64,000 bases of DNA from contig NZ_JACOGC010000005.1 in assembly GCF_014284195.1 (NCBI RefSeq), positions 248,001 to 312,000 on the forward strand, in the 5' to 3' direction. Every line of letters starts with the position of its first letter. Position 1 is the first letter of the stretch. Of this stretch, positions 9,941-63,774 are shown piece by piece. The DNA is from Cognatundibacterium griseum. Its GTDB lineage: Bacteria > Pseudomonadota > Gammaproteobacteria > Burkholderiales > Burkholderiaceae_D. A model generated the notes under the pieces. That model saw only the letters and a program-made list of their open reading frames with translations. It had not been told where the DNA came from and ran no database searches. The translations under genes were made by a program, and so were the position numbers.

Positions 9941-12382
9941 TCAACGCGTGCCTGAAAAAATCAGCTCAAACCAGGGGGATGACTGATGCAGCGTAACAGA
10001 GAAACCGCCTTTGACGACGGCAACATCCTTATCGGGCACAGCAGCCAGCCTGCTGCCATTCCCATCGAGGGGATACACGGTCAGATGTTTGGCCGGCGAC
10101 GGGTAAAAAAAACTGGCAGCAATCCGCTCCGTCCATACTGGACCGGTCGCGTCTCTTGCTCCCGATATTTGGCGGGTATGCGGCAGGTCCGGCTCCAGCG
10201 TCCACCACATCCTGTCACCGGTATAGGAAATCAGTTCTTTGGGACGCTGCGGCATCTCGCCTGGCTGGCTGCCGGTCGTTGCGCCGCTGAGGCTGAGCAG
10301 TACGCGACGCGAAGTGACCAACGGCAAGGCATCGCGGCTCATCAATGTCATCACACCATAGTGCCTGCCACCAAATACCGGCAAAAATGGCATATCCTGC
10401 GTGACGATCATTCTTGAGGCTGTGGTTCCTGCAAAAAAAGCACTGTACGGCGTAATGACCTGCAAATGATGCAACTCTGCGTTATAACGGAGAAACTTCT
10501 CATTTTTTACCACCGCGTTGTCACTCTGCTGACCTTCACTACGCCCCGGCTCCCGATCTTTTCCGGTCGCCAAACCCGTACCGACAATTCCCTGCAACGG
10601 CTGCGAAGAATCAACCGAGATTTGGCGCGTTAACACCTGCTGCGGGCTGACCTGTTCATGTTTTTCCAGATAATCCAGATAGCCCGGGGAAGAAACGCCC
10701 TCTCCCAATGCGCCCAGCATCTGGCGTTTTTCAACCGGCACGGAAAGAATTTCCCGTTCGCGTAACACCGGAATCTGAAAATAGCGGAACATGGCAGCAG
10801 ACATGCCGACATGCACCAGCTGACCGGTCATTCCGCTCAACCCAAAACTGTCCGGTAAAGCATTCCAGGTCTTGCCATCGCCATACTGAAAGAAAAACAA
10901 TCCGTCCCAGTCCTGCGCACTGGCCACCGCAGCCATGACCGGGATAATTTCGGCACTCTGACGATTTGGATACGCCTGATTGAATTCGCTGATGACAAAC
11001 GGTTTCCTGACATCGCGATAAAAGGCTCTGGATAATAATCCGTCCCATCCCTCGCGGAGCACGGACTGATCTCTGATACGCCAGTCATGGCTATCCCAGG
11101 ACTGATGCGGAAAGTCGTAATGATCTACATAAAAATGCTCATCGACGTAATCCATGTCCTGTTGCGTATCGACATTCAGCAAGCCGCCGAAATACGCCTG
11201 CGTGCCTGTCACGGGAACCAGGCCGCCCACCTCGGCGTGGACGGTATTACGCAAGGTATCGACATATTGTTTATCCATCTCGACCAGGAAACGGACAAAA
11301 TCCAATACTCTGCGCCCGGCGCCGGCCTGATGTAATTTCAGGCCGGGCTCAAGTATGTCCGGTACCTGCCATCCAAGACGATTCAGTACGCGGTACAGAA
11401 AATACTTCACGCGCCCCAGCCAGCCTTCACCGTGCGCCAAAACAGCATTTTCAGTGCTTTTTACCAGCAACGCTCCCTGCTTGGGCAGGTCACAGCTTCG
11501 CCACAGACTGCAAGCCTGAGCCAGGCTGCCATGTTGCCGCACCAGCCAGTGCTGCCAGTGTTGCTGCAAGATGCGTTCGTATTCACCCGGTAACTGATCC
11601 AGCTGTTTTCTTTGCCATGCGCCGGTCAGCGAAGACTCGTTATTGATTTCCACCAGCGCCAGCACCGGGTCATTGTTCAACTGCAACCGGCGCAGCAGCT
11701 GCTGGGCATATTCGATCTGCAATGCGATCATGCGCGGCTCGAACAAATGCAGGGGGTGACTGGCAAACGGCATGGATGCGCCCGGCGGCAAGGGAGTCAG
11801 CTGATCCACTGCATAACGGAAGGTGTAGCCGACATGCAGATTCAGGTTCACATACAGTCCCTCTTCTTTCAGGGCATCCATAAATACCCGCAAGCGATGG
11901 AGTGCCGTCTGGTTAAAGCTGGGGAAAGCGCCAGTCGTCAGAATTCCCAGGGGCTGCTCATCACTGTCGCTCAGCACCGAGTCCAGATGATGCAGACGTA
12001 CCGCATTGAACCCGAGTGCCCGCAAACGCCGCGCAATGACCGGCGCATCTTCCTCGCGCGGGAAATTGGCAGCGTCCGACAGGTTGATGCCAAACAGTCT
12101 GACCCGCTGGTCGTCACGGGTGCGGGGCAGATGATCCGGCCCAACCCGGAAAAAATGTCCGTCTTTCGCGAATAACTGATCCGCCGGATTTAACGTGTGA
12201 TTCAGTGCAGAAAAATCGGCAATTGCCGGGAGTTTATTTTCGTCGATTTGAAACGGATACCATTCCAGTGCTTCGGCCATTGCCGGACGGATGGCACAAT
12301 AAATCAGCAAAATAGCCGGAAAAAGGAAGCCGACACAGCAAACCCGGAATAAATGACGCCTTTTACAATGAAAATAGTTCAT
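9941..12382 (-). CDS. Secreted or membrane-anchored glycoside hydrolase, clan GH-A type
   Basis: An 813-residue protein with an N-terminal hydrophobic segment (about 12-36) ending near AMAEA, so it is exported or anchored in the inner membrane facing the periplasm. The TIM-barrel pattern is that of clan GH-A: RALGFNAVRLHHLD (about 121-134), INNES with the likely acid/base Glu249, and FVISEFNQ with the likely nucleophile Glu465. The C-terminal 300 residues look beta-rich. It lies in the polysaccharide region, so it probably trims or cleaves the polymer (inference). The exact GH family and substrate are not recognisable by eye. Part of a betaproteobacterial exopolysaccharide context. Confidence 0.75.
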   Translation of the reverse strand: MNYFHCKRRHLFRVCCVGFLFPAILLIYCAIRPAMAEALEWYPFQIDENKLPAIADFSALNHTLNPADQLFAKDGHFFRVGPDHLPRTRDDQRVRLFGINLSDAANFPREEDAPVIARRLRALGFNAVRLHHLDSVLSDSDEQPLGILTTGAFPSFNQTALHRLRVFMDALKEEGLYVNLNLHVGYTFRYAVDQLTPLPPGASMPFASHPLHLFEPRMIALQIEYAQQLLRRLQLNNDPVLALVEINNESSLTGAWQRKQLDQLPGEYERILQQHWQHWLVRQHGSLAQACSLWRSCDLPKQGALLVKSTENAVLAHGEGWLGRVKYFLYRVLNRLGWQVPDILEPGLKLHQAGAGRRVLDFVRFLVEMDKQYVDTLRNTVHAEVGGLVPVTGTQAYFGGLLNVDTQQDMDYVDEHFYVDHYDFPHQSWDSHDWRIRDQSVLREGWDGLLSRAFYRDVRKPFVISEFNQAYPNRQSAEIIPVMAAVASAQDWDGLFFFQYGDGKTWNALPDSFGLSGMTGQLVHVGMSAAMFRYFQIPVLREREILSVPVEKRQMLGALGEGVSSPGYLDYLEKHEQVSPQQVLTRQISVDSSQPLQGIVGTGLATGKDREPGRSEGQQSDNAVVKNEKFLRYNAELHHLQVITPYSAFFAGTTASRMIVTQDMPFLPVFGGRHYGVMTLMSRDALPLVTSRRVLLSLSGATTGSQPGEMPQRPKELISYTGDRMWWTLEPDLPHTRQISGARDATGPVWTERIAASFFYPSPAKHLTVYPLDGNGSRLAAVPDKDVAVVKGGFSVTLHQSSPWFELIFSGTR

Positions 12383-12450: not shown

Positions 12451-13782
12451 ATGAAGAATCCCCGGCCACTCCCGTCAGACCAGCTCGCTGTATATGAGAT
12501 CCACATCATCAGGCTCATGGTGGTGCTGTTTGTCGTTTTTTCGCTGCTGCCTTATGGCCTGTCATGGGACTACACCGGCTCATCTGCCCTGACCATGGAA
12601 GGTTCGATGACCACCAAACTGGAATGGGGCAGCCTGTTCGCAGTTTCGGCAGTCTTGCTATACCGCCATCTGCCAACAGTGTTAAAAGATCTGCGCGTCA
12701 TCAATCCTTTTTTGGTGATGGTGCTGTTGTGGTGCGCCTTATCAAGCCTGTGGTCACCACTGCCGCTGGTCACTTTCAAGAGAGCGATTCAGCTATACGG
12801 ACTCGTCATGCTGGGTCTGGCTATCCAATTGGCTCCGAATGCACTGCACTTGCTGGCAAAAACCATGCTGTACACACTGATGTGCATACTCGGTCTATCG
12901 CTCCTGATCGTCATTGTTTCGCCATCAACCGGTATTGACTATGAACTTGGCCGGGCATGGCGCGGGGCGCTTTCCCAGAAGAATGAACTGGGTCAGGTGG
13001 CCGCCATGTCCATCCTGCTGTGGCAGGTACGGTCCTGCATGGAAAAAGTGGATGTGAAAATTCTGATGCTTTCGCTGCTGTTCTGTTTCTTTATGCTGGT
13101 CATGAGCAAAAGCTCTACCAGCATGATCATCACCATTGTCACCAGTGGTATTTTTCACACCTTGCGCAAACATCATCTCGCATCGATTTATCCGCTGACG
13201 CGCATCTTCCTTGGAGTGTTCTGCCTGGTGCTGCTGGCAGTCTATGTGTTCTACATGCAGGAATCCCGCCTCCCCACCTGGCCGGAGGTGACTGCACCGA
13301 TTGCAGGTATTTTTGGAAAAGGCACCGACCTGACTGGCCGGACCGATATCTGGGAGCTGATCTGGGTTGAAATTCACCGCCATCTGCTGATTGGACTGGG
13401 TTACGGCTCGTTCTGGCTGGGACCGGACAGCCTTTCGCAATTCATCATTGATGCTCTGCACTGGATTCCGCTGCAAGCCCATAATGGCTATCTTGATATC
13501 CTGAATGAACAGGGAGCGATCGGGCTGACTTTGACAATCCTGACTTTACTGATGCAAGCACGATCACTGACCTTACTGGCCCGTGACGACCGGGTACAAG
13601 CCGCTTTCTGGAGCGCCATGCTGCTGGTCGTTGTAGTAACAAACTTCACTGAGAGCAGCCTGTTCCGCGGTTTCGGATTTCAAAACGTCTTGTTCATCTG
13701 CGCGCTGACCTCGGTCACATCGGCAACACGCCGCCTGAATCAGGTTGACCGGGAAGCTACGCAAACCATCAACGCAAGATAG
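12451..13782 (+). CDS. O-antigen ligase / polymerase-like membrane protein
   Basis: A 443-residue polytopic membrane protein with about ten to twelve hydrophobic segments and one large periplasmic loop (about residues 275-345). The loop holds GRTDIWELIW and an HNGYLDILNEQG motif, typical of the Wzy_C / WaaL superfamily. Such proteins polymerise lipid-linked repeat units or ligate the polymer to lipid A. Here a polymerase role in exopolysaccharide synthesis is more likely, given the EpsE/F/G genes nearby; this is inference. It is transcribed away from the glycoside hydrolase gene, with 68 bases between the two starts, and ends 11 bases before the stop of the acyltransferase gene. Confidence 0.85.
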   Translation: MKNPRPLPSDQLAVYEIHIIRLMVVLFVVFSLLPYGLSWDYTGSSALTMEGSMTTKLEWGSLFAVSAVLLYRHLPTVLKDLRVINPFLVMVLLWCALSSLWSPLPLVTFKRAIQLYGLVMLGLAIQLAPNALHLLAKTMLYTLMCILGLSLLIVIVSPSTGIDYELGRAWRGALSQKNELGQVAAMSILLWQVRSCMEKVDVKILMLSLLFCFFMLVMSKSSTSMIITIVTSGIFHTLRKHHLASIYPLTRIFLGVFCLVLLAVYVFYMQESRLPTWPEVTAPIAGIFGKGTDLTGRTDIWELIWVEIHRHLLIGLGYGSFWLGPDSLSQFIIDALHWIPLQAHNGYLDILNEQGAIGLTLTILTLLMQARSLTLLARDDRVQAAFWSAMLLVVVVTNFTESSLFRGFGFQNVLFICALTSVTSATRRLNQVDREATQTINAR

Positions 13783-13792
13783 GCAAACCGGC

Positions 13793-14836
13793 TTAGTGGG
13801 CGTAAGGGTAACCAAGCCGCTGGAAGGGCTGCTCGATCAAACGATAAGACAGATCAGAAAGTACAAATGACGCGATCAGCAGGAGCGCCATCCGCGACGG
13901 CAATGACCAGTCTGGCAACCAGAACGTGATCATCCCCAGCACCAGCCAGTGATACAGATACAGGGAATAGCTGACCCGCCCGATATACGCCATCGGGCGC
14001 GAACCCAAAATACGCGCAGCCAGCCCTTGCTGCAGCACCAGCGTTGAAAACATCATCAGCAAGGCGATGCCTTGCAGGGAATAACGCCAGGATTCACGAA
14101 AATCCTCGCCGCGGTATAACAATGTCGCCAGCAGCAGCACCGAACCACCCGCCGCGAGCCATCGGCTGTTTAAAACCGAGTGCGCCCCGGGATAGCGTGC
14201 CAGCAGCAAAGCAAGACAGGAACCATACAAAATCGAATCGGCACGCGTATCAGTCGCTTTATAAATCCGGAACCTCGCCAGATACTCCTGTCCCACACCA
14301 TACACAAGATATAAGCGCCACAACAGGATCAACACGATGAGTGCGGTGATCATTTGCAAAAACCTTTTCGGCGAAGCGATCAGCAACGCAAACGCAAACG
14401 GGAACACCATGTAAAAATGCTCTTCGACAGCCAGCGACCAGGTAATTCCCAAAGGAGAAGGAAGTGCAGTACCGCTGAAGCCCACAAAAATATCAAAATA
14501 ATTTGCGAAGTAAAAAAACACGGCAAACAGCTCCACCCAGCGCCATTCCACATGTGCTGCATACATTACCAGTAAAGCGATCGCTACAAAAACCAGGAGC
14601 GCTGGCAGCAGCCGGAAAAATCGCCGCAGATAGAATTTTTTAATATTCATCACGCCGTTCTTATCCCACTCCCGAATCATGAGGCGTGTGATAATAAAAC
14701 CGCTGATGAAAAAGAAAATTGTCACCCCGAGCCCACCAGGGACAATATGACCAAGCCAGGCATGCGAGATCAGCACCAATAAAATAGAAACCGCCCGCAA
14801 GCCATCCAAAGCCTGCAGGCGTGAAGAATTATTCAT
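13793..14836 (-). CDS. Acyltransferase family 3 (OafA/YrhL-like) membrane protein
   Basis: A protein of about 347 residues from the ATG at 14836 (MNNSSRLQALDGLRAV); a GTG at 14845 would add three residues. The N-terminal LDGLRAVSILLVLISHAW with its conserved His, about ten membrane segments, and RLIEQPFQRLG at the C-terminus are the acyltransferase_3 signature. These enzymes transfer acetyl or similar groups to sugars in O-antigen, peptidoglycan or exopolysaccharide. The context says it decorates the polysaccharide made by this locus. There is no SGNH hydrolase domain. Confidence 0.9.
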   Translation of the reverse strand: MNNSSRLQALDGLRAVSILLVLISHAWLGHIVPGGLGVTIFFFISGFIITRLMIREWDKNGVMNIKKFYLRRFFRLLPALLVFVAIALLVMYAAHVEWRWVELFAVFFYFANYFDIFVGFSGTALPSPLGITWSLAVEEHFYMVFPFAFALLIASPKRFLQMITALIVLILLWRLYLVYGVGQEYLARFRIYKATDTRADSILYGSCLALLLARYPGAHSVLNSRWLAAGGSVLLLATLLYRGEDFRESWRYSLQGIALLMMFSTLVLQQGLAARILGSRPMAYIGRVSYSLYLYHWLVLGMITFWLPDWSLPSRMALLLIASFVLSDLSYRLIEQPFQRLGYPYAH

Positions 14837-14860
14837 ACCCGCCACTCAAAAAATACCGCA

Positions 14861-15799
14861 TTATTTGTCACCATAGGCAGCAAACAGCCGGCCACGAAAA
14901 TGATTTAATTTTCCCAACTGGGAGACGCATGTCCGCAGCCATGAAAAGGCTTTCAGCGGAGCAAACAACATCAGCAGTACACTGAATAACAACGCCGCTA
15001 CGGCCTGCACAATGGCTTTTATTGAGAGAAACACTGCCCGCTTGCGACGTTGCTTTAGAGGGGTGCATGCCAGTTCGGTTCGCATATACAGCTGCCCGGT
15101 ACGGAACGACCTGTTGAGCAACCAGGTTGCCGTGGCACGTTCGGCAGGCACGATTTCGGAGACGGGTGCCTCATCACACCAGATCATGCGCGCTCCCGCG
15201 AGATCCAGCTGTCTGAACAGCATGGAATCCTCACCGCCGGTCTGGCCATAGGCAGGATCAAACGGTCCGGCATCCGGTGAGCCGGCGTAAATGGCGCTTA
15301 AAGTCTGTTTCCGGACCAGCACATTGCCGCTGCGCGCATCCTGATGACGAATCTGGGTACCGGTCAGTAATCGTCGCCGGTCAAAATAAGCACCACGACG
15401 TATCCAGCCGGGAACACCATTCTGATACTCAGGCACAACCGGCGCAAACACAACATCTGCCTGATATTTTTGCTGCGCTGAAAACAGATTCAGTAACCAG
15501 TCACGCCCAGGACACTCATCATCATCGACCATGCTGATCCAATCAGCACTCGCGGCGTGAATAGCCGCATTTCTGGCCAGAGAAATATTCGGCGTCTGCA
15601 GTGCCAATGCAATCAGCCTGCTGCCATATTGATGCCCGAACTCAGTCAGCACCTGTGCGGCGGACTGCGCCGGATCATTATCAACGACGACGACCTCCAA
15701 TACATCGGCAAAACCCTCCTGCGAAAAAACAGCCTGCAGAAGGCGGCGTAAAAGTTCGGGACGCCGGAATGTGCAAATACAGATACTGATCCGGACCAT
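14861..15799 (-). CDS. Family 2 glycosyltransferase
   Basis: A 312-residue GT-A fold glycosyltransferase. RISICICTFRRPELL starts the nucleotide-binding half. DWISMVDDDECPG holds the metal-binding DDD near residue 95. QTGGEDSMLFRQL matches the acceptor/base region. A hydrophobic segment at about 265-285 suggests membrane association. It adds a sugar to the growing lipid-linked repeat unit on the cytoplasmic face. It lies four bases downstream of the epsG-like gene in the epsE-F-G order, so it is very probably co-transcribed. Confidence 0.9.
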   Translation of the reverse strand: MVRISICICTFRRPELLRRLLQAVFSQEGFADVLEVVVVDNDPAQSAAQVLTEFGHQYGSRLIALALQTPNISLARNAAIHAASADWISMVDDDECPGRDWLLNLFSAQQKYQADVVFAPVVPEYQNGVPGWIRRGAYFDRRRLLTGTQIRHQDARSGNVLVRKQTLSAIYAGSPDAGPFDPAYGQTGGEDSMLFRQLDLAGARMIWCDEAPVSEIVPAERATATWLLNRSFRTGQLYMRTELACTPLKQRRKRAVFLSIKAIVQAVAALLFSVLLMLFAPLKAFSWLRTCVSQLGKLNHFRGRLFAAYGDK

Positions 15800-15803
15800 A
15801 GAA

Positions 15804-16751
15804 TCAGTTCTGTCCCAGATAAGTCTTCAGAAAAGACAATCCTGGCAATGATGTCAGGCGATTGCGCCATCCCTTTGAATGGCTGGCAGCAGACGACTCA
15901 TTGAAGATCGTTCCGATAATCTCGACCCCTGCTGCCTGCATCGTATTTTGTGTGTGGCGGATATCGTTAATCAGCGTCACATCCTGCTTCGCCACCAGCA
16001 GCGCATAACCCAGCTGGTGTGCTACCAGCTGGGCATCTGAAGCCCGCGTCGCAGCATAAGTATCAACAACAAATGTATCAAACTGACCTGCACAGGACTC
16101 TAAAAGCTGGCTCATTCTCGGAACACGTAAAATTTCCAGCGGATTAGGAGGACGCGGCCCCGACGGCAATATATGCAGATCAGGCATCAGAGGAATCAAC
16201 GCCTGCTGATACGGAATACGACCTGCCAGTACCGACGAAAGCCCATCCTGGGTACCAAGTGCCAGATAATCATGCAGATTGCCAGTGCGCAAGTCGGCAT
16301 CAATCAATAACGTCTTCCGCCCAACCTGAGATAAAGCAATTGCCAGACTGATCGCCATATAGCTTTTGCCTTCATCAGAACCCGGGCTGATCAGCGCAAT
16401 ACTGATCTTGTCCTGCGTACTGAAGCGCAATAACAACTCACTGCGTAAACGACGAATTTCTTCTGCCTCTTTTGAAAACGGCGCATGCAAAAAGCGCAGT
16501 CCCGGATCAGCGACGCCATTCAGCAATTCTTTGCTGCTGTAACCGAACTGTTCTCCCAGCGCAGAATCAATTTCTGCCTGACTGAGCAATCCCAGACTCA
16601 ATGCAGCATCGCCAAAGCGCAGTTTTTTGAGTTTCTGCTCCTGCGCAATCTGCTCAATTTGCTGGACTGTCAGCAAGCCTTTTTGCAAAAATAATTCACC
16701 GAGACGACCAACTCTGACGGATGCATGTTCCGGATTTTTCCATTCAGACAT
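15804..16751 (-). CDS. EpsG-like chain-length ATPase with N-terminal MshEN-type module
   Basis: A 315-residue protein from the ATG at 16751, which overlaps the epsF-like stop by eight bases. Residues 16-39 and 45-68 are two 24-residue motifs of the form RLG(x)6GLL...Q, separated by five residues, the layout of the c-di-GMP-binding MshEN domain. Residues 115-315 are a CpsD/CapB-type P-loop ATPase: Walker A SPGSDEGKS at 122-130, A-prime LLIDADLR at 148-155, and FDTFVVD as Walker B. Bacterial tyrosine kinases of this class drive polysaccharide chain-length control with an EpsF/Wzc partner. The usual C-terminal tyrosine cluster is missing (a single Tyr in the last 25 residues). A start at 16778 is possible but would overlap epsF much further. 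Confidence 0.85.
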   Translation of the reverse strand: MSEWKNPEHASVRVGRLGELFLQKGLLTVQQIEQIAQEQKLKKLRFGDAALSLGLLSQAEIDSALGEQFGYSSKELLNGVADPGLRFLHAPFSKEAEEIRRLRSELLLRFSTQDKISIALISPGSDEGKSYMAISLAIALSQVGRKTLLIDADLRTGNLHDYLALGTQDGLSSVLAGRIPYQQALIPLMPDLHILPSGPRPPNPLEILRVPRMSQLLESCAGQFDTFVVDTYAATRASDAQLVAHQLGYALLVAKQDVTLINDIRHTQNTMQAAGVEIIGTIFNESSAASHSKGWRNRLTSLPGLSFLKTYLGQN

Positions 16752-18183
16752 GAGATGTCCCTTCCGTTTTCCGGCCACCAGATTTCACTTCCCACATGCT
16801 TTCACTAAAACCGATATGCGCCATCACCGGCACACTGAATTCCTTTTCCAGATCTTCAAGACAACGTACCCGCCTTTGCGAGAGTTCCAGTAAAAAAGCT
16901 GAACTCAATGCAAACAACAGCCCTGCAATCATGCCAAAAATCAGATTATTCCTAAGAATCGGCTTGGCATGTTTCTTGGGCAAATCGGCCCATTGCATGA
17001 CTGTCGCGTCAGAAATCGCAACATTGCTGGTCATCAGCAACTCATCAAACTTCTGTATCGCTGCGTTATACACTTTTTGCACACTGTCCAATTGGCGCTG
17101 ATACGAACTGATCACATCACGATGTTTTTTATTTTCGAATGTCTTTTTCTGAAAACTCGCCAACTCATCTTCCATGACCTTTTGTTGCTGTGCCAACCGC
17201 CCTTCAACTGCCATTAAAGAATCCATGGCCGTCGCCGCCTCCCGCTGCAGCTTATCGTTTAAAGCCTGCCGTTCATTCTGGATGGCGATGTATTTGGGAT
17301 GACGAACACCAAGTGTCGCCTTCGCATTTGCCAGTTGCGCATCGAGTGCGATCAATGCGGATTTGACGCCGGATATGTGACCGATGCCTGCAATTTCAGG
17401 TATATCGGAATTCAGATTTCCCTGTTTCAGCAGTTTTTCCAGTGACTGTCGCTTTGCCTGCGCTTCCACTTTCTGAAGCTGGACATCCAGAATACGGGCG
17501 CTGAGCGCGCTCATCTGGCGGGACTCCACATCGACCCGTTCATCCACATCCACAATCTGATACTGCTCCTGATAGGCCGTGAGTTTTTTCTGGATCTCAT
17601 CCACCTGCCGGCTCAGCGATTCGAGTTGAAAGTTGTACTGCTCTTTACGCGCGCGTGCCGGGGCATTCATCATTTCCAGCGATAAATTGATATAGGCCTT
17701 GACTACCGAATTCACCACATCTTTCGCATGTTCAGGTGTGGATGCAGCATACTGAATTTCAATCACGCGGCTGTTTTTGTGTGGCGCCACCTCAATATTA
17801 CGGGTAATCGATTCTGCGATAATGCGCATCGCGCTCTCAGGTCCATATTGCGCAATTAATTTTTTGTTCGCGGGAACATTCTGTAAATGCAGATCGGCAA
17901 TCACACGCTCAGCGACCTGCACACTTTTAATCACGTCGAATTGCGTCTGCAGATAGCTCTCATCCTGCAAAGGGTGAAACTGTTTGCCGCTGATCGGATC
18001 ATTCATGCGGTAATCAATATAAATATCCGCAACTGCCACATACGTTTTTGGCAGCAAAAAACTGGAAATACCAGCCAGTAACACAGCGATAACGACAATC
18101 ACAACAATCAGGTGCCGTCTGGCGCGCAGCATGGCGCCAATCTGGGTGAAAGAAAGAATAAGTTCGTGAGAAGAAGATCGCAT
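16744..18183 (-). CDS. EpsF-like polysaccharide chain-length determinant (Wzz/Wzc-type)
   Basis: A 479-residue protein with a first membrane segment at about 24-44, a long periplasmic region with a Wzz domain start (residues 50-130) and coiled coil (about 185-390), and a second segment at about 420-440. This is the polysaccharide co-polymerase layout, without a fused cytoplasmic kinase; the ATPase is the next gene. It sets polymer length and couples polymerisation to export through the EpsE channel. It ends inside the start of the epsG-like gene (ATG overlap), and begins eight bases after the epsE-like stop, so the three are an operon. Confidence 0.9.
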   Translation of the reverse strand: MRSSSHELILSFTQIGAMLRARRHLIVVIVVIAVLLAGISSFLLPKTYVAVADIYIDYRMNDPISGKQFHPLQDESYLQTQFDVIKSVQVAERVIADLHLQNVPANKKLIAQYGPESAMRIIAESITRNIEVAPHKNSRVIEIQYAASTPEHAKDVVNSVVKAYINLSLEMMNAPARARKEQYNFQLESLSRQVDEIQKKLTAYQEQYQIVDVDERVDVESRQMSALSARILDVQLQKVEAQAKRQSLEKLLKQGNLNSDIPEIAGIGHISGVKSALIALDAQLANAKATLGVRHPKYIAIQNERQALNDKLQREAATAMDSLMAVEGRLAQQQKVMEDELASFQKKTFENKKHRDVISSYQRQLDSVQKVYNAAIQKFDELLMTSNVAISDATVMQWADLPKKHAKPILRNNLIFGMIAGLLFALSSAFLLELSQRRVRCLEDLEKEFSVPVMAHIGFSESMWEVKSGGRKTEGTSHV

Positions 18184-18191
18184 CGGCTGTG

Positions 18192-19133
18192 TTAAAAAAT
18201 TCTTTCGTTAACAAACACCACATCACCGGGCAATACCGGATCGGTCAGATTGGCAGGAACTGCCTGTATATTGCCGCCATCCGATTTCCGGTAAATCAGC
18301 ATGCGCGACGTTGATCCCCTATCAGTCACGCCACCGCCAATCGCCAGAACGCGCATGATGTTCAGGTCGTTTTCAACCGGATACATACCTGGTCGCCGGA
18401 CTTCACCGTACACATAAAAATTCTTCTGCTGTCCAATAATCAGCACATCATTCGGCAAAACTGACTGCATCAATGCGGCCTGATTCTTTCCTTCCTCCAG
18501 ATCCAGCTTCAGGGAAAGCACCTCCTGAGCTGCCGTTGCGCCGGCAGAAGGTGTCCGGCGCAAGATGCGCAGACTTTTATCTGCCCTGGTCGTGGTTCCG
18601 CCCGCCAGACTCAGCGCATCCAGCATGGATACCGGGCCCTGCAAGGGATATCTTCCGGGGCGCAGCACTTCCCCCAGGACAGAAAAACTGCGGCTGATTT
18701 GCTGGGCGACTTTGACCGACACTTTCGGGTCCAGCAAATATTGTCCCTGTTCCAGCTTACGAGCAAATTGTGCGGCGACTTCGCTGGCGGTTTTACCTTT
18801 GACTTCAATCACGCCGACCAGCGGCAGCGTAATGATGCCGCTTGCCCCCACCAACACGTCAGCACTCATGTCAGGTTGTCCGAATACCGTAATCAGCAAC
18901 TGATCCCCCTCACCGATTACATCTGGAAATTGTGCTGACTGACTCAGCCCGGCATCAACCGGTTTATCCGGGATAGTGTCTGATGTTGAGGTCGTGGATG
19001 CAGGCGGTAACCTGCGCAGTTCAGCCTCCATCTTCAGCGGAGCAGCAGAATTCGTTTCCTGCGCAAAGAGCGCACTCCAGCCAAGACACAGCAGACAGGC
19101 AAGCAGCACTCGCCTTGCCAGGCATAAGTTCAT
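18192..19133 (-). CDS. EpsE-like polysaccharide export protein (Wza family)
   Basis: A protein of about 313 residues from the ATG at 19133, which gives a clean signal peptide ending near LFAQ; an upstream ATG at 19157 would add eight residues. It has the polysaccharide-export domain (about residues 75-165, IGEGDQLLITVFGQPDMS) followed by SLBB-type repeats with GEVLRPGRYPL and GEVRRPGMYPV. No lipobox cysteine is obvious. Such proteins form the periplasmic and outer-membrane channel for exopolysaccharide. It is the first gene of the epsE-epsF-epsG-glycosyltransferase operon. Confidence 0.92.
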   Translation of the reverse strand: MNLCLARRVLLACLLCLGWSALFAQETNSAAPLKMEAELRRLPPASTTSTSDTIPDKPVDAGLSQSAQFPDVIGEGDQLLITVFGQPDMSADVLVGASGIITLPLVGVIEVKGKTASEVAAQFARKLEQGQYLLDPKVSVKVAQQISRSFSVLGEVLRPGRYPLQGPVSMLDALSLAGGTTTRADKSLRILRRTPSAGATAAQEVLSLKLDLEEGKNQAALMQSVLPNDVLIIGQQKNFYVYGEVRRPGMYPVENDLNIMRVLAIGGGVTDRGSTSRMLIYRKSDGGNIQAVPANLTDPVLPGDVVFVNERIF

Positions 19134-19157
19134 TTTAACAATGAGAGGGAAGATCAT

Positions 19158-19482: not shown

Positions 19483-20478
19483 ATGCCTGCCCTGAGAGTG
19501 AAATACATTCTGCCAATGACTGAAAGCCCATCCATGACCACAACGCCGTCCATACCTGTCACTCCACCGTCTTCGCAGGACGTGTCCAGTCACCCACAGA
19601 CCGTGGTTCCGCTAGTCATCATTGCCCCCGTCAGGGATGAAGCCGGGCTGATTCGCCTGACGCTCGATTCCATGGTCAGACAGACCGTGAGGCCGGTTGA
19701 ATGGGTCATCGTGGATGACGGCTCAAAAGACGAGACACCTGAAATCGTCCGTGAATATGCCCAAAAATATCCCTTCATACGCCTGGTGCGGCGACCAGAC
19801 CGCGGATTCCGGAAAGTCGGCGGCGGGGTCGTTGCAGCCTTTAAATACGGCATCACCCAGATAGTAAACCAGGACTACGCCTACATTGCCAAACTCGATG
19901 GCGATATGTCTTTTGGTCCGCGCTACCTGGAAATCATGTTCGAAAAATTTGCAAACGACAGCAAACTGGCCGCCGTTTCAGGCAAAGTATTCCGGGAAGA
20001 AGGCGGAAAAAAAATCGAGGAAATCATCATTGATGAACATGTCGCCGGACAGTTCAAACTCTACCGCCGGGAAGCATTTGAACAAATCGGTGGCTTCGTG
20101 GAGGAAGTGCTGTGGGATGGCATCGACGTGCATACCGCCCGGATGAAAGGCTGGAACACGCTGAGTTTTTATCATCCTGATGCCATCCTGATGCACCACC
20201 GGCTGATGGGGTCATCCGATAAAAATGTGTATCGCGGCCGCTTGCGCTGGGGACGGGGTATCTGGTTTATGGGTTACCATCCTCTCTATGCAATCGCTTC
20301 CGGAATTTTCAGGATGCGGGAAAAACCGTTTGTTATCGGCGGCCTGCTGATTATTGCGGGTTATCTGGGTGCTGCACTGAAAGGTGCTCCCCGCTATGAC
20401 AATCCGGAGTTCAGACAACATTTACACCAATGGCAGTTGGCCCAGATCAAAAATCTGATATTCAAAAACAAAACCTGA
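19483..20478 (+). CDS. Family 2 glycosyltransferase
   Basis: A 331-residue GT2 enzyme with a GT-A domain: VIIAPVRDEAGLI, VEWVIVDDGSKDET (UDP-sugar binding) and IAKLDGDMSFGPRYLE with the DxD metal site, then an acceptor region with VLWDGIDVHTARMKGW. The tail has one hydrophobic stretch (about 285-300). It probably adds a sugar to the repeat unit, just before the priming transferase gene that follows 18 bases downstream. Starts at 19483 or 19516 (MTESPSMTTTP) are both possible; neither has a strong ribosome-binding site. Confidence 0.9.
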   Translation: MPALRVKYILPMTESPSMTTTPSIPVTPPSSQDVSSHPQTVVPLVIIAPVRDEAGLIRLTLDSMVRQTVRPVEWVIVDDGSKDETPEIVREYAQKYPFIRLVRRPDRGFRKVGGGVVAAFKYGITQIVNQDYAYIAKLDGDMSFGPRYLEIMFEKFANDSKLAAVSGKVFREEGGKKIEEIIIDEHVAGQFKLYRREAFEQIGGFVEEVLWDGIDVHTARMKGWNTLSFYHPDAILMHHRLMGSSDKNVYRGRLRWGRGIWFMGYHPLYAIASGIFRMREKPFVIGGLLIIAGYLGAALKGAPRYDNPEFRQHLHQWQLAQIKNLIFKNKT

Positions 20479-20496: not shown

Positions 20497-21915
20497 ATGT
20501 TCAATTCTTATTCTCCGGAACGATCATCCCAGCCGGCACATCTGCTTTCTGTATTGATAGGGATATTGTTCGGATCAGTCATCTGCATAACCTTATTTGC
20601 CATCATTATTAATGTCGAGCATGTCGAACCAGAGATTTTTGGCGTACGCCTGCTGATTGCAGCACTCACCAGCGTGATTGTGTTTTCCAGTCATCACCTG
20701 CTGAATGCCCTGCAGACCAAAAAGCCACTGACCATATTTCCCAAACTGACCTGGCGCTGGTTTGTCGTTTTCATGGTGGTTTTACTGACCGCTTATGTTG
20801 ATAAAGCGGCAGAACAACTATCGCGTCTGGTGATGTTGCTGTGGCTGGCAATCACACCTTTCGCACTGATGCTGACAGCAATACTGGTCCGGACTACCGC
20901 GATCCTGTACTACTCGAATCCGGCGCGCCGCCGTAAGGCCGTGATCGTGTGGGCTAATTCAGCCTGTGCTGATCTGGTCAAGGAGTTACGCAGCTCCCCG
21001 CTGGCCGCTATTGATGTGATCGGTTTTTTTGATAACCGGAGCGATGCCCGCCCTCCCGCACATTTAAAAAAGCTGGGCAATCTGAATGAGGCCGTTGACT
21101 GGATCGTGGATCCGGCGACCGGAAAAATCAACGTCGATGTGGTTTTTATCGGTCTTAGCAATAAAGAACCCGCAGAACTCATGGAAGTCATCGAAGTGTT
21201 ATATGACAGCACGGCAACCACTTATTTTGTTCCGGAGTCTGCCATTTTTGGAATGCCCGGCATCCAGCTGAGGGAACTTGCCGGGAAACCTGTCCTGGCC
21301 TCTTCCGAAACTCCATTCATCGGGCTGGCGGCGCTGCCCAAACGCTTGCTGGATCTGATCGGTGCCACGATTGGACTAATTTTATTGTCACCAGTCATGC
21401 TCGCCATTGCCATCGGTGTCCGACTCAGTTCGCCCGGCCCTGTTCTGTTCAGACAAAAGCGTTATGGTGTCGCCGGGAAACCGATTAATGTGTATAAATT
21501 CCGCAGCATGAAAGTGACGCAGGCGGATGTGCCGGTGATTCAGGCAAAGGTCGGGGATACCCGGGTCACCAAATTCGGCAGCTTCCTCCGCAAAACCTCG
21601 CTGGATGAATTGCCGCAGCTATTCAACGTACTCCAAGGTAATATGAGCCTGGTAGGCCCGCGTCCTCACGCGATTGAACACAATGAGCTATACCGGAAGC
21701 TCGTGACTGGTTATATGTTCCGTCACAAGATCAAACCGGGGATTACCGGCTGGGCCCAGGTTAATGGTCTCAGGGGAGAAACGGAAACGCTGGAAAAAAT
21801 GCAGGCCAGGGTCGATTACGATCTGTATTATCTCCAGAACTGGTCGATCTGGTTTGATATCGTCATTATCTGGCGCACCGTCAAGGTTCTGTTCGGTGAT
21901 AAAAACGCCTACTGA
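20497..21915 (+). CDS. Undecaprenyl-phosphate sugar phosphotransferase (WbaP/WcaJ type)
   Basis: A 472-residue polyprenyl glycosylphosphotransferase. About four or five membrane segments lie in the first 150 residues, then a CoA-binding-like Rossmann domain (about 145-260), a last membrane hairpin, and the catalytic domain from about 278 with [44 protein letters not shown] and VGPRP. It transfers a sugar-1-phosphate, often glucose, onto undecaprenyl phosphate and so starts repeat-unit synthesis. It ends 12 bases before the convergent FemAB-like gene. Confidence 0.95.
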
Positions 21916-21927
21916 TTTCTGAAAATA

Positions 21928-22980
21928 TCAATGCTGTTTCCATTGACGGATCAACTTTCCAGCAGCTGACTGTTTGAGATTCTGCCGCAGCGAACGGTAG
22001 CACATCTGCACATCGCGAATCAGGCGCGGAGCAGCGATGGCTCCCTCGCAAAGGGGAATAAAATCAGTTGCGAAACGCTGTTTGTAAGCCTGCTCTCCCC
22101 GTCCCAGATCAATCAGGGTAATGCCATGCTGCTGCGCCTCTCTGGCACAAGCAGCAAGTAGAATCAGGCCCGGCGAAAACTCGGCATAATCCGTGTCATA
22201 CCATGGAAACCAGTAATGCAACACCTGGCCGGAGCGCATACCAAAATGAGCCGCCACCAGATGATCTCCTGCATGCAGGGTTGAAAGCATGCCGGAAAAT
22301 TCCGGTGTAGTCTGCTCAAAAATATCATTCACTGCGTCGCGTATCCATGGCACGGCAAATATGTCATGTTGCGCCCCCACTGTTTTAATAAACTGAGCTG
22401 ACTTTCCCTTCAATAAGGCCAGGAAGTCATCACGGCTGCGGGACTCCATCACAAAGCGCAACGGCCCAGCCTTTTTTTCCAGCTTGCGCTGATTGGTTTC
22501 TGTTTTCTTGAATAAAGAAGCATCGCGCAATTGAGTCAGCGTCTGGATATATGCATCAAACCCTCCCGCCAGATTCAATGTCAGCGAACGGCTCTGCTCC
22601 CAGGAAAACGCAGCAAACTCCCTGCGCTCCGCAGGCATGTGATTAAAGCCCATATAATGAACCTGCGCTGCACGTAACATCTCTCCGACAGAAAGCATCA
22701 TTCCGGGCGAACATACCGGCCCCTGATAGTCAGTCAGACTGCCGCCAACCGGCCCGGCAACAAAGGCACTCTTACGCTGGAAAGGGAAAAATCCAATAAT
22801 CTGATTGTGATCTTCGATCACCAGAACCCTGACATCTGGCTGTGCCACAGCCATGATTCTGGTGTAAGCCGGATGATAATACGGACTTTGAAAAACAGGT
22901 GACAGGCTACGCTGATGCTGCCATACACGCTCCAAAGCAACATCAATTTCATCGACACTGATCTGGCTGAATTTCATCAT
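21928..22980 (-). CDS. FemAB/CelD-like GNAT-fold acetyltransferase
   Basis: A 350-residue protein resembling the BioF2/CelD-like acetyltransferase family. VLVIEDHNQIIGFFPFQRK and a second half with FSGMLSTLHAGDHLVAAHFGMRSG and WYDTDYAEFSPGLILLAACAREA are the two related GNAT-fold halves. Family members are common in exopolysaccharide and cellulose gene groups and are thought to acylate sugars or peptides; the acceptor here is unknown. It overlaps the yihY-like gene by four bases and so is translated with it, although functional linkage to that gene is not evident. Confidence 0.78.
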   Translation of the reverse strand: MMKFSQISVDEIDVALERVWQHQRSLSPVFQSPYYHPAYTRIMAVAQPDVRVLVIEDHNQIIGFFPFQRKSAFVAGPVGGSLTDYQGPVCSPGMMLSVGEMLRAAQVHYMGFNHMPAERREFAAFSWEQSRSLTLNLAGGFDAYIQTLTQLRDASLFKKTETNQRKLEKKAGPLRFVMESRSRDDFLALLKGKSAQFIKTVGAQHDIFAVPWIRDAVNDIFEQTTPEFSGMLSTLHAGDHLVAAHFGMRSGQVLHYWFPWYDTDYAEFSPGLILLAACAREAQQHGITLIDLGRGEQAYKQRFATDFIPLCEGAIAAPRLIRDVQMCYRSLRQNLKQSAAGKLIRQWKQH

Positions 22981-62135: not shown

Positions 62136-62154
62136 CTGACTACGTATCTTGCGC

Positions 62155-63774
62155 ATGCGTGAACTGATCCGTAATAGTATCGTCTTTCGCAGTGCCTCCG
62201 CAGTACTTGGAGTCAGCTTCTTCATTGGTATTTTGTTTTCCGTTGCCAGCTACATTTATTTTGTCGACGAAGAACAGGACCAGACGGTTAACACAGTCTA
62301 TGACTTGCTGGCATCCCTTGAAAATACCGCCAGCATCGCCTGCTACATCAACGATCAGAATCTTGCCAACGAGGTCGTGAATGGCCTGGGCAGAAACGCG
62401 GATATCAGCCAGGTCAGTATCAATGTCAAAGGAACGATCCTGGCTGAATTGGTCAAACCGACACCACCGCATCACCCCAGTATCGCGACTTTATTCCGAA
62501 AAAATATCAACCACATCGACCGGGATATTTCATCTCCGTTCAACAGTTCAGAAAAAGTCTGCACCGTCCATATGCAGATCAATCAGGATGCCGTTTTTGA
62601 ACACAGCACATCCAAAGCGCGTTTCGTCGTTGCGCTGCTGCTGTTCCAGACCGTGCTGATCGCCCTGGCACTGGTTTATATCATGTACCGCATGGTGACC
62701 AATCCGATTAAATCGATTTCTGACCGGCTGCATACACTGCTCCCCCAGAACGGTGAATTACTGCAGCATCCGCACCGGCACACAGGTGATGAACTGGGAC
62801 AGCTGGTCAATGATGTGAATAATATTATTTCCGATCTGGTGTCATCGCTGGATGAAGAAAGACATCTGCGGGTCCAACATGCATTGGGTGAAAAAAAGTT
62901 CCAGGCGATTTTCGATAATGCCGAAACCGGCATCTTCCAGATGAACGAACACGGCGAGCTGATTTCCTATAATCAGGCTCTGGCACGCATGCTTGATCTT
63001 CCCACCGGCCAGACAATTGCTTCACATGCGTTACTGGAGCGGATCAGCGGACAGGAACTGCGGCTGCATCTGATGATTCACTCAGCCATCAGCGAGGCAC
63101 AGATTCTGTCTGAAGATTTTTATATTGAGCTCGGTCAGAATAAAAAGAAGTGGCTCAATATCGTTTTACATGCCGCCGAGAACGGCGTGCTGCAAGGGCT
63201 GATCAATGATGTCACTGAACGCAAGCAACAAGAGGAAAAAGCGCATCAGCTGGCAGTCACAGATCACCTTACCGGACTGAACAACCGGCTCGGGCTGGAC
63301 AGGGAAATGGCGCGGCTGGCGAAAGAAAACGCCAATGGAACCGGATGCCCGTTCTTTTTACTGCTGATCGATCTCGATAAATTCAAAACCGTGAACGACA
63401 CTTATGGCCACAGTGCCGGTGATATCGTACTGGTTCATTTCGCGAAAATCCTGTTGCGCACACTGAGAAAAACCGATTTCATTGCCCGTCTTGGCGGTGA
63501 TGAGTTCGTGCTGCTGCTAAGAGGGCTGGATGACCTCAGTAAGGCGGAAGAGATTGCCCGGAAAATTATTTCCCAGGCATCGCGACGGATTGACATCAGC
63601 CCCGATACCCAGGTTCAGATCGGGACCAGTATCGGCATCAGCTACACGCCCGCGACCGCATTTTCACCGGAAGACCTGCTGGCGCAAGCAGATGCTGCTA
63701 TGTATGAAGTAAAACAGCATGGCAGAAATGCTTATCAGGTCGCGCCGTATTTTCCGGATGATCCTGCCAGATAA
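62155..63774 (+). CDS. Membrane diguanylate cyclase with periplasmic sensor, HAMP, PAS and GGDEF domains
   Basis: A protein of about 539 residues from the ATG at 62155; a TTG six bases upstream is the alternative. Membrane segments lie at about 14-35 and 157-178, enclosing a periplasmic sensor of about 120 residues (CHASE8-like by layout). A HAMP linker (180-235), a PAS region (about 245-345), and a GGDEF domain (about 370-535) follow. The active loop GGDEF is at 447-451, and the inhibitory RxxD site (RKTD, 438-441) is intact, so the enzyme should make c-di-GMP under product control. The periplasmic partner gene lies 19 bases upstream. Confidence 0.93.
   Translation: MRELIRNSIVFRSASAVLGVSFFIGILFSVASYIYFVDEEQDQTVNTVYDLLASLENTASIACYINDQNLANEVVNGLGRNADISQVSINVKGTILAELVKPTPPHHPSIATLFRKNINHIDRDISSPFNSSEKVCTVHMQINQDAVFEHSTSKARFVVALLLFQTVLIALALVYIMYRMVTNPIKSISDRLHTLLPQNGELLQHPHRHTGDELGQLVNDVNNIISDLVSSLDEERHLRVQHALGEKKFQAIFDNAETGIFQMNEHGELISYNQALARMLDLPTGQTIASHALLERISGQELRLHLMIHSAISEAQILSEDFYIELGQNKKKWLNIVLHAAENGVLQGLINDVTERKQQEEKAHQLAVTDHLTGLNNRLGLDREMARLAKENANGTGCPFFLLLIDLDKFKTVNDTYGHSAGDIVLVHFAKILLRTLRKTDFIARLGGDEFVLLLRGLDDLSKAEEIARKIISQASRRIDISPDTQVQIGTSIGISYTPATAFSPEDLLAQADAAMYEVKQHGRNAYQVAPYFPDDPAR

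Follow-up and report, generated by a model that had tools for sequence, protein, structure and literature searches.

An EpsG-like exopolysaccharide ATPase with an MshEN-like domain in Cognatundibacterium griseum: a candidate target of c-di-GMP

Introduction

Can cyclic di-GMP (c-di-GMP) act directly on the chain-length ATPase of a Wzx/Wzy-type exopolysaccharide (EPS) pathway? The question is raised by an epsG-like gene (15804..16751, minus strand) in a 64,000-nucleotide stretch of Cognatundibacterium griseum (assembly GCF_014284195.1, contig NZ_JACOGC010000005.1, positions 248,001 to 312,000), referred to here as the window. The original prediction, made from the letters of this stretch, was that the encoded protein joins two c-di-GMP-type 24-residue motifs to a CpsD-type P-loop ATPase. 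The reading we lean towards is an EpsG-like ATPase whose N-terminal domain, in the clade to which it belongs, binds c-di-GMP and switches ring assembly on EpsF. For synthase-type polysaccharides, c-di-GMP acts on the enzyme itself, on BcsA through a PilZ domain and on NfrB through an MshEN domain (PMC8669469), and for Wzx/Wzy-type chain-length proteins phosphotyrosine cycling has been described (PMC12220298). If true, the reading would mean that c-di-GMP controls a Wzx/Wzy-type chain-length machine directly and post-translationally, and polymer length or export would be tied straight to the messenger through a c-di-GMP module carried by the co-polymerase ATPase.

The N-terminal domain is a homologue of MshEN

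The epsG-like gene runs from an ATG at 16751 to a stop codon at 15804-15806 and encodes 315 amino acids; a Shine-Dalgarno-like GGAAGGGA stands closely 5' of the ATG, an alternative GTG start at 16778 is possible, and the plus strand of the same interval holds many stops. Both motifs were confirmed on the minus-strand translation, where R16-Q39 (RLGELFLQKGLLTVQQIEQIAQEQ) and R45-Q68 (RFGDAALSLGLLSQAEIDSALGEQ) fit R-(L/F)-G-x6-G-L-L-x11-Q exactly and are separated by the five-residue spacer 40-44, and the P-loop ATPase domain behind them was recovered by Pfam and NCBIfam profiles and by structure comparison. The protein as a whole aligned with the EpsG model TIGR03029 over profile positions 4-273 of 274 (E 6.6e-67), with 225.5 bits against an equivalog cut-off of 313.8.

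The domain delimited by the motifs (residues 16-68; 16548..16706, minus strand) was covered by NCBIfam NF053729 ('cyclic di-GMP-binding domain-containing protein, MshE-related') over profile positions 1-53 of 53 (E 3.9e-8, 33 bits), with 36.5 bits (E 1.6e-8) in the whole-genome scan and 36.8 bits elsewhere, and the Pfam-A scan of the protein gave no T2SSE_N/MshEN family at E<=1. Where a profile match had been foreseen, the end-to-end alignment stood, while a score above the curated cut-off of 38 bits and a Pfam T2SSE_N match did not appear. In a phmmer search of residues 1-75 against PDB sequences, Vibrio cholerae MshE was the top match (E 8.4e-6, ungapped over 16-69). The domain was predicted to be a four-helix bundle that conforms to the MshEN fold in the predicted models, and its best structural match was MshE with c-di-GMP (5HTL; 0.8 Å over 53 columns, Foldseek E 0.07); the predicted local distance difference test score averaged 88 for the full protein and 79 for the domain alone, with a predicted TM-score (pTM) of 0.62. 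Profile, PDB sequence search and predicted fold bear out the proposed homology, and the N-terminal 53-residue four-helix domain is a true MshEN_N homologue.

The domain across the EpsG family and in the Undibacterium clade

TIGR03029 itself spans the MshEN-like domain (profile 4-60), 15 of the 16 hits above 200 bits in 274 genomes of the class include the N-terminal part, and all 57 EpsG domains of alignment A3, which derives from a source set favouring EpsG with an N-terminal domain (the 80 loci most like the window protein; A2 took 65 of these loci, A3 took 57 of the 66 rows of A2), match the MshE-related profile at E<=0.01. The MshEN-EpsG fusion is therefore a trait of the EpsG family, not peculiar to the window gene. 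A TIGR03029 match above the equivalog cut-off was found in 5 of the 274 class genomes.

The EpsG alignment held 119 rows, 117 after removal of repeats; L001, L017, L018, L020, L022, L023, L028 and L064 were left out (own repeat, without the N-terminal module, or not EpsG), as were other loci matching the ATPase part alone. In the tree, whose bootstrap had not settled, 20 of the 117 rows lay on one side of a single branch with support 100/99. This Undibacterium clade represents 18 genomes, 17 from Undibacterium and one from an uncultured Oxalobacteraceae bacterium; the two remaining rows, L065 and L067, are repeats that lie on contigs equal in length to those of L038 and L051 and group as identical with them. 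The type of EpsG found in the clade occurs in 17 of 36 genomes of the genus, that of the window included. Two Undibacterium genomes (G287 and G289, with loci L054 and L055) carry the common EpsG type with a decayed motif 1, and no match of the clade's type was observed in them.

The window protein has all six key residues (positions 1, 3 and 24 of both motifs), with Arg at position 1 in both, and in the clade the two Arg, the two Gly and the two Gln are present in every one of the 20 rows (18 genomes). The original prediction had depended on the conserved Arg and Gln being retained in close homologues, and their loss was not seen. Position 1 of the MshEN motif may also be Lys or Leu (PMC11731258); with these allowed, all six residues are found in 8 of the 97 other EpsG. 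In these 97 there is no variation at Gly18, Gly47 and Gln68; Gln39 is present in 89, Arg45 in 74 and Arg16 in 10. As far as the alignment goes, what sets the clade apart is a near-canonical motif 1; the majority of the other EpsG sampled have a degenerate one. Within the clade, average conservation is higher at the contact positions than in the remaining domain or the kinase. Import of the domain from another MshEN protein was also considered and is unlikely, as the domain bears the EpsG hallmarks F46, A49 and A50, which other EpsG have too.

The ATPase domain and the question of tyrosine kinase activity

The ATPase core (residues 118-285; 15897..16400, minus strand) carries ..SDEGKS, with K129, LLIDADLR and VVD, which we take to be Walker A, A' and B. 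The family alignment places the EX2RX2R motif at EEIRRLR (residues 97-103; 16443..16463, minus strand). All of these elements are kept in the clade, and across the 117 EpsG rows E97 and R103 are invariant and R100 is found in 116. In bacterial tyrosine kinases (BY-kinases), the EX2RX2R motif serves oligomerisation and builds the octameric ring. The fold of the ATPase domain is that of the BY-kinases (3bfv, E 5.7e-18; several Wzc 3la6 chains, 1.6 Å over ~200 columns), in agreement with the CpsD-type ATPase originally proposed.

The Walker A Lys (residue 129; 16365-16367, minus strand) is present in 20 of 20 clade rows versus 20 of the 97 other EpsG, with Arg at this position in 44; 77 of the 97 thus lack the Lys, though the family is named tyrosine kinase. 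The Walker A Lys and an intact motif 1 were not seen to be tied in any simple way, a Rubrivivax-type group having the Lys together with a decayed motif 1. No C-terminal tyrosine cluster was observed in any of the 117 rows, all of which have 0 or 1 Tyr after residue 284. The tail of the window protein has one Tyr, and since a tyrosine cluster is absent, the protein is classed as a BY-kinase-fold ATPase.

The C-terminal tail of clade EpsG is 25-41 residues long (15807-15899, minus strand, in the window) and was basic in the 11 tried, compared with a median of 2 residues in other EpsG. When the amphipathicity of the 11 clade tails was compared with shuffles, 3 clearly exceeded them (fraction <0.01). 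For the window tail this fraction was 0.838, and a role as an amphipathic membrane anchor is not claimed.

Evidence for and against c-di-GMP binding

By alignment, most c-di-GMP-holding residues are still present in the domain of the clade, and binding by the domain of the window EpsG is likely; it would most likely take up one c-di-GMP, with micromolar rather than nanomolar affinity. From 33 GGDEF and 18 EAL matches, the genome is predicted to be able to make and degrade c-di-GMP. No GGDEF or EAL match was found within the EPS cluster, where HD-GYP and PilZ were not searched for. Elsewhere in the window, a GGDEF protein (62149-63774, plus strand), with a PAS-like match barely under the cut-off, is likely a diguanylate cyclase and lies ~45 kb from epsG.

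Several findings weigh against binding. The guanine-facing Leu29 of MshE, which belongs to one of two leucine triads stacking the guanines (PMC12002112), corresponds to residue 36, which is Ala in the window protein (codon 16644..16646, minus strand) and Leu in none of the 20 clade rows; 19 of the 20 carry a small residue (A, S, G or T) at this position 21 of motif 1, and L047 carries Phe. At the guanine-stacking positions 2, 17 and 21 of both motifs, a large hydrophobic residue was found in 5 of 6, Ala36 being the sole guanine-facing exception, and on this account the domain is classed as an MshEN-like homologue and not as a proven receptor. Leu occupies the equivalent of residue 36 in 25 of 25 other MshEN domains examined in the genus, these being higher-scoring domains judged non-EpsG by length and sequence. 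Published single changes at conserved hydrophobic positions cost more than 10-fold, two such variants still being ligand-stabilised. Phe46, which replaces Leu39, might compensate for Ala36, but Phe46 is also found in 96 of the 97 other EpsG, 65 of them with Leu36. Helix 1 starts early in the predicted model, and an early start of this helix helped block binding in PilF GSPII-A. The NF053729 score (33-36.8 bits) is under the curated 38-bit cut-off, and 16 relatives score 38.2-48.6 bits; two EpsG without Arg16 reach 48.8 bits, so this score is unable to settle binding.

In the most serious competing explanation, less probable than the reading we prefer but of real weight, the MshEN-type bundle serves docking or ring architecture alone, for example onto the cytoplasmic tail of EpsF, with c-di-GMP binding lost as in XpsE and PilF GSPII-A and the clade Arg kept for another reason. 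Besides the small residue at position 21 of motif 1 in nearly all clade rows, it is favoured by the 97 other EpsG, where position 1 of motif 1 is Ser in 56 and position 11 is Lys or Arg in 71; the Methylotenera or Nitrosomonas type has Ser and Lys in motif 1. In a PilF construct, binding was lost when position 1 of motif II was Ser, and Arg at position 11 is among eight changes in the non-binding XpsE. The retention of the domain family-wide despite the decay of motif 1 likewise points to a role without need of a full site. Against docking alone stand the six residues most needed for binding, kept in every clade row, and the higher average conservation of the clade's contact positions compared with the remainder of the domain.

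Two further explanations were given far less credence. A conventional tyrosine autokinase, in which the N-terminal domain would have no regulatory part and phosphotyrosine cycling would set chain length as in Wzc, is consistent with the BY-kinase fold, with the conservation of Walker A, A' and B across the clade and with four low-molecular-weight phosphatase matches in the genome; it is very improbable given at most one Tyr after residue 284 in every EpsG row, and the phosphatase matches are on contigs C10 and C13, the window being on C15. That the motifs match by chance in an unrelated helical stretch has a negligible probability. Small helical bundles look alike, Pfam FumaraseC_C matched the window domain weakly (E 0.069) and fumarase rows appeared in the structure searches, but MshE ranks above the fumarases there, all 57 EpsG domains of A3 match the MshE-related profile, and the paired relaxed motif (after Wang et al.) with a five-residue gap never arose when the first 300 residues were shuffled 200,000 times, the shuffled row ending at residue 300. 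On this shuffle test, a chance match was rejected. In the six frames of the window, the motif pair occurs once, at the epsG-like gene, and single relaxed motifs occur three times. As a separate observation, the C-terminal domain of class II fumarase also resembles the four-helix domain (16506-16724, minus strand), weakly in sequence and in predicted structure.

Proposed mechanism

Under c-di-GMP control of ring assembly, the EpsG-like cytoplasmic ATPase would work with EpsF, a Wzz-type co-polymerase, and with EpsE in export, in a Wzx/Wzy-type EPS pathway. A linker of 22 residues separates the MshEN-like bundle from the ATPase part, and 28 residues lie between it and the EX2RX2R motif; a ligand at residues 16-68 would alter the packing of the domain, via the 22-residue linker, against the EX2RX2R helix (97-103), and the altered packing would switch ring assembly on EpsF, hence polymer length or export. 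Binding, ring control and the direction of control are what we infer from these features, and activation is a guess at the direction, made by analogy with NfrB and MshE.

BY-kinase rings are toggled by the phosphorylated tyrosine cluster, according to a review. With 0 or 1 Tyr in the tail of EpsG inside and outside the clade and 77 of the 97 others without the Walker A Lys, something else may set ring assembly; the MshEN-like bundle near EX2RX2R is a fitting candidate, and c-di-GMP gating an attractive substitute. This would suggest that regulation takes another route in a family annotated as tyrosine kinases. The broadest version, that EpsG proteins are misnamed tyrosine kinases and are co-polymerase ATPases whose ring assembly is set by the N-terminal MshEN-type domain, with c-di-GMP as ligand at least in the Undibacterium clade, is put forward tentatively and is rather unlikely to hold in full. 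A ready comparison is offered by the clade with its near-canonical site and its many relatives with a decayed one.

Comparison with known systems

The domain resembles that of V. cholerae MshE (5HTL; PMC5013675) in its two 24-residue motifs, five-residue spacer and four-helix bundle, with R/G/Q at positions 1, 3 and 24 of both motifs and an ungapped alignment over 54 residues. It differs by two replacements of Leu, by Phe at motif 2 position 2 and by Ala at motif 1 position 21, by the absence of an MshEN_C subdomain before the next domain, and by its fusion partner, a BY-kinase-fold ATPase where MshE has one of the GspE/PilB type. NfrB, a c-di-GMP-activated glycosyltransferase (PMC8669469), likewise joins MshEN to an EPS enzyme, but its domain is C-terminal on a synthase-type glycosyltransferase, whereas that of the window is on a co-polymerase ATPase; the NfrB model matched the window domain weakly (E 0.0029, 16.1 bits against a whole-protein cut-off of 1170). 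The ATPase fold and EX2RX2R motif are shared with the BY-kinases Wzc and CapB, from which the window protein differs by the absence of a tyrosine cluster and by the MshEN-like domain in front. As in EpsG, the gene stands beside epsF- and epsE-like genes; the near-canonical motif 1 and the Walker A Lys distinguish the protein from most other EpsG sampled, and the basic C-terminal tail from the EpsG of TIGR03029.

Reported partners of MshEN include ATPases, glycosyltransferase, receiver, HD-GYP, CheA, CheX, cyclase and Ser/Thr kinase domains (PMC5013675), and a later paper mentions polysaccharide secretion generally among MshEN contexts. No recognisable description of a fusion of MshEN to EpsG or a BY-kinase was found among the papers listed by the literature searches, supplementary tables and most subscription journals lying outside the search. 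The NCBI models NF053729 and TIGR03029 already overlap on EpsG proteins, so that the curators may know of the MshEN-EpsG overlap. The Caulobacter holdfast belongs to another Wzx/Wzy-type pathway, in which HfsK is a c-di-GMP effector, and for this reason no first is claimed.

The surrounding gene cluster

The genes around epsG support the assignment to an EPS gene cluster, as judged from their profile matches and order. On the minus strand, the gene for an EpsF-like Wzz-type co-polymerase (16744..18183; TIGR03017 E 3.8e-82, 276.4 bits, cut-off 422.75; Wzz PF02706) overlaps the start of the epsG-like gene by 8 bp and is adjoined by that for an EpsE-like polysaccharide export protein (18192..19157; TIGR03028 E 1.8e-58, 197.7 bits, cut-off 262.65; Poly_export, SLBB). 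The EpsG-, EpsF- and EpsE-like proteins each score below their own equivalog cut-off, and epsE and epsF are adjacent to epsG. Immediately downstream of epsG is a family 2 glycosyltransferase gene (14861..15799, minus strand), and the order epsE-epsF-epsG-glycosyltransferase is the same in the Undibacterium loci L065-L067. The cluster also encodes an Acyltransferase 3 protein (13793..14845, minus strand), a Wzy-type polymerase/ligase (Wzy_C; 12451..13782, plus strand), a second family 2 glycosyltransferase (19483..20478, plus strand) and an initiating sugar transferase (Bac_transf, WcaJ-like; 20497..21915, plus strand).

An 813-residue protein (9941-12382, minus strand) with a weak glycoside hydrolase 5 match under the cut-off is also found in the EPS loci L065-L067 and L069, and may trim the polymer. 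The Caulobacter holdfast protein HfsK is generally of the Acetyltransf_6 (GNAT) kind and responsive to c-di-GMP; an Acetyltransf_6 (GNAT) protein adjoins the EPS genes of the window (21928-22980, minus strand).
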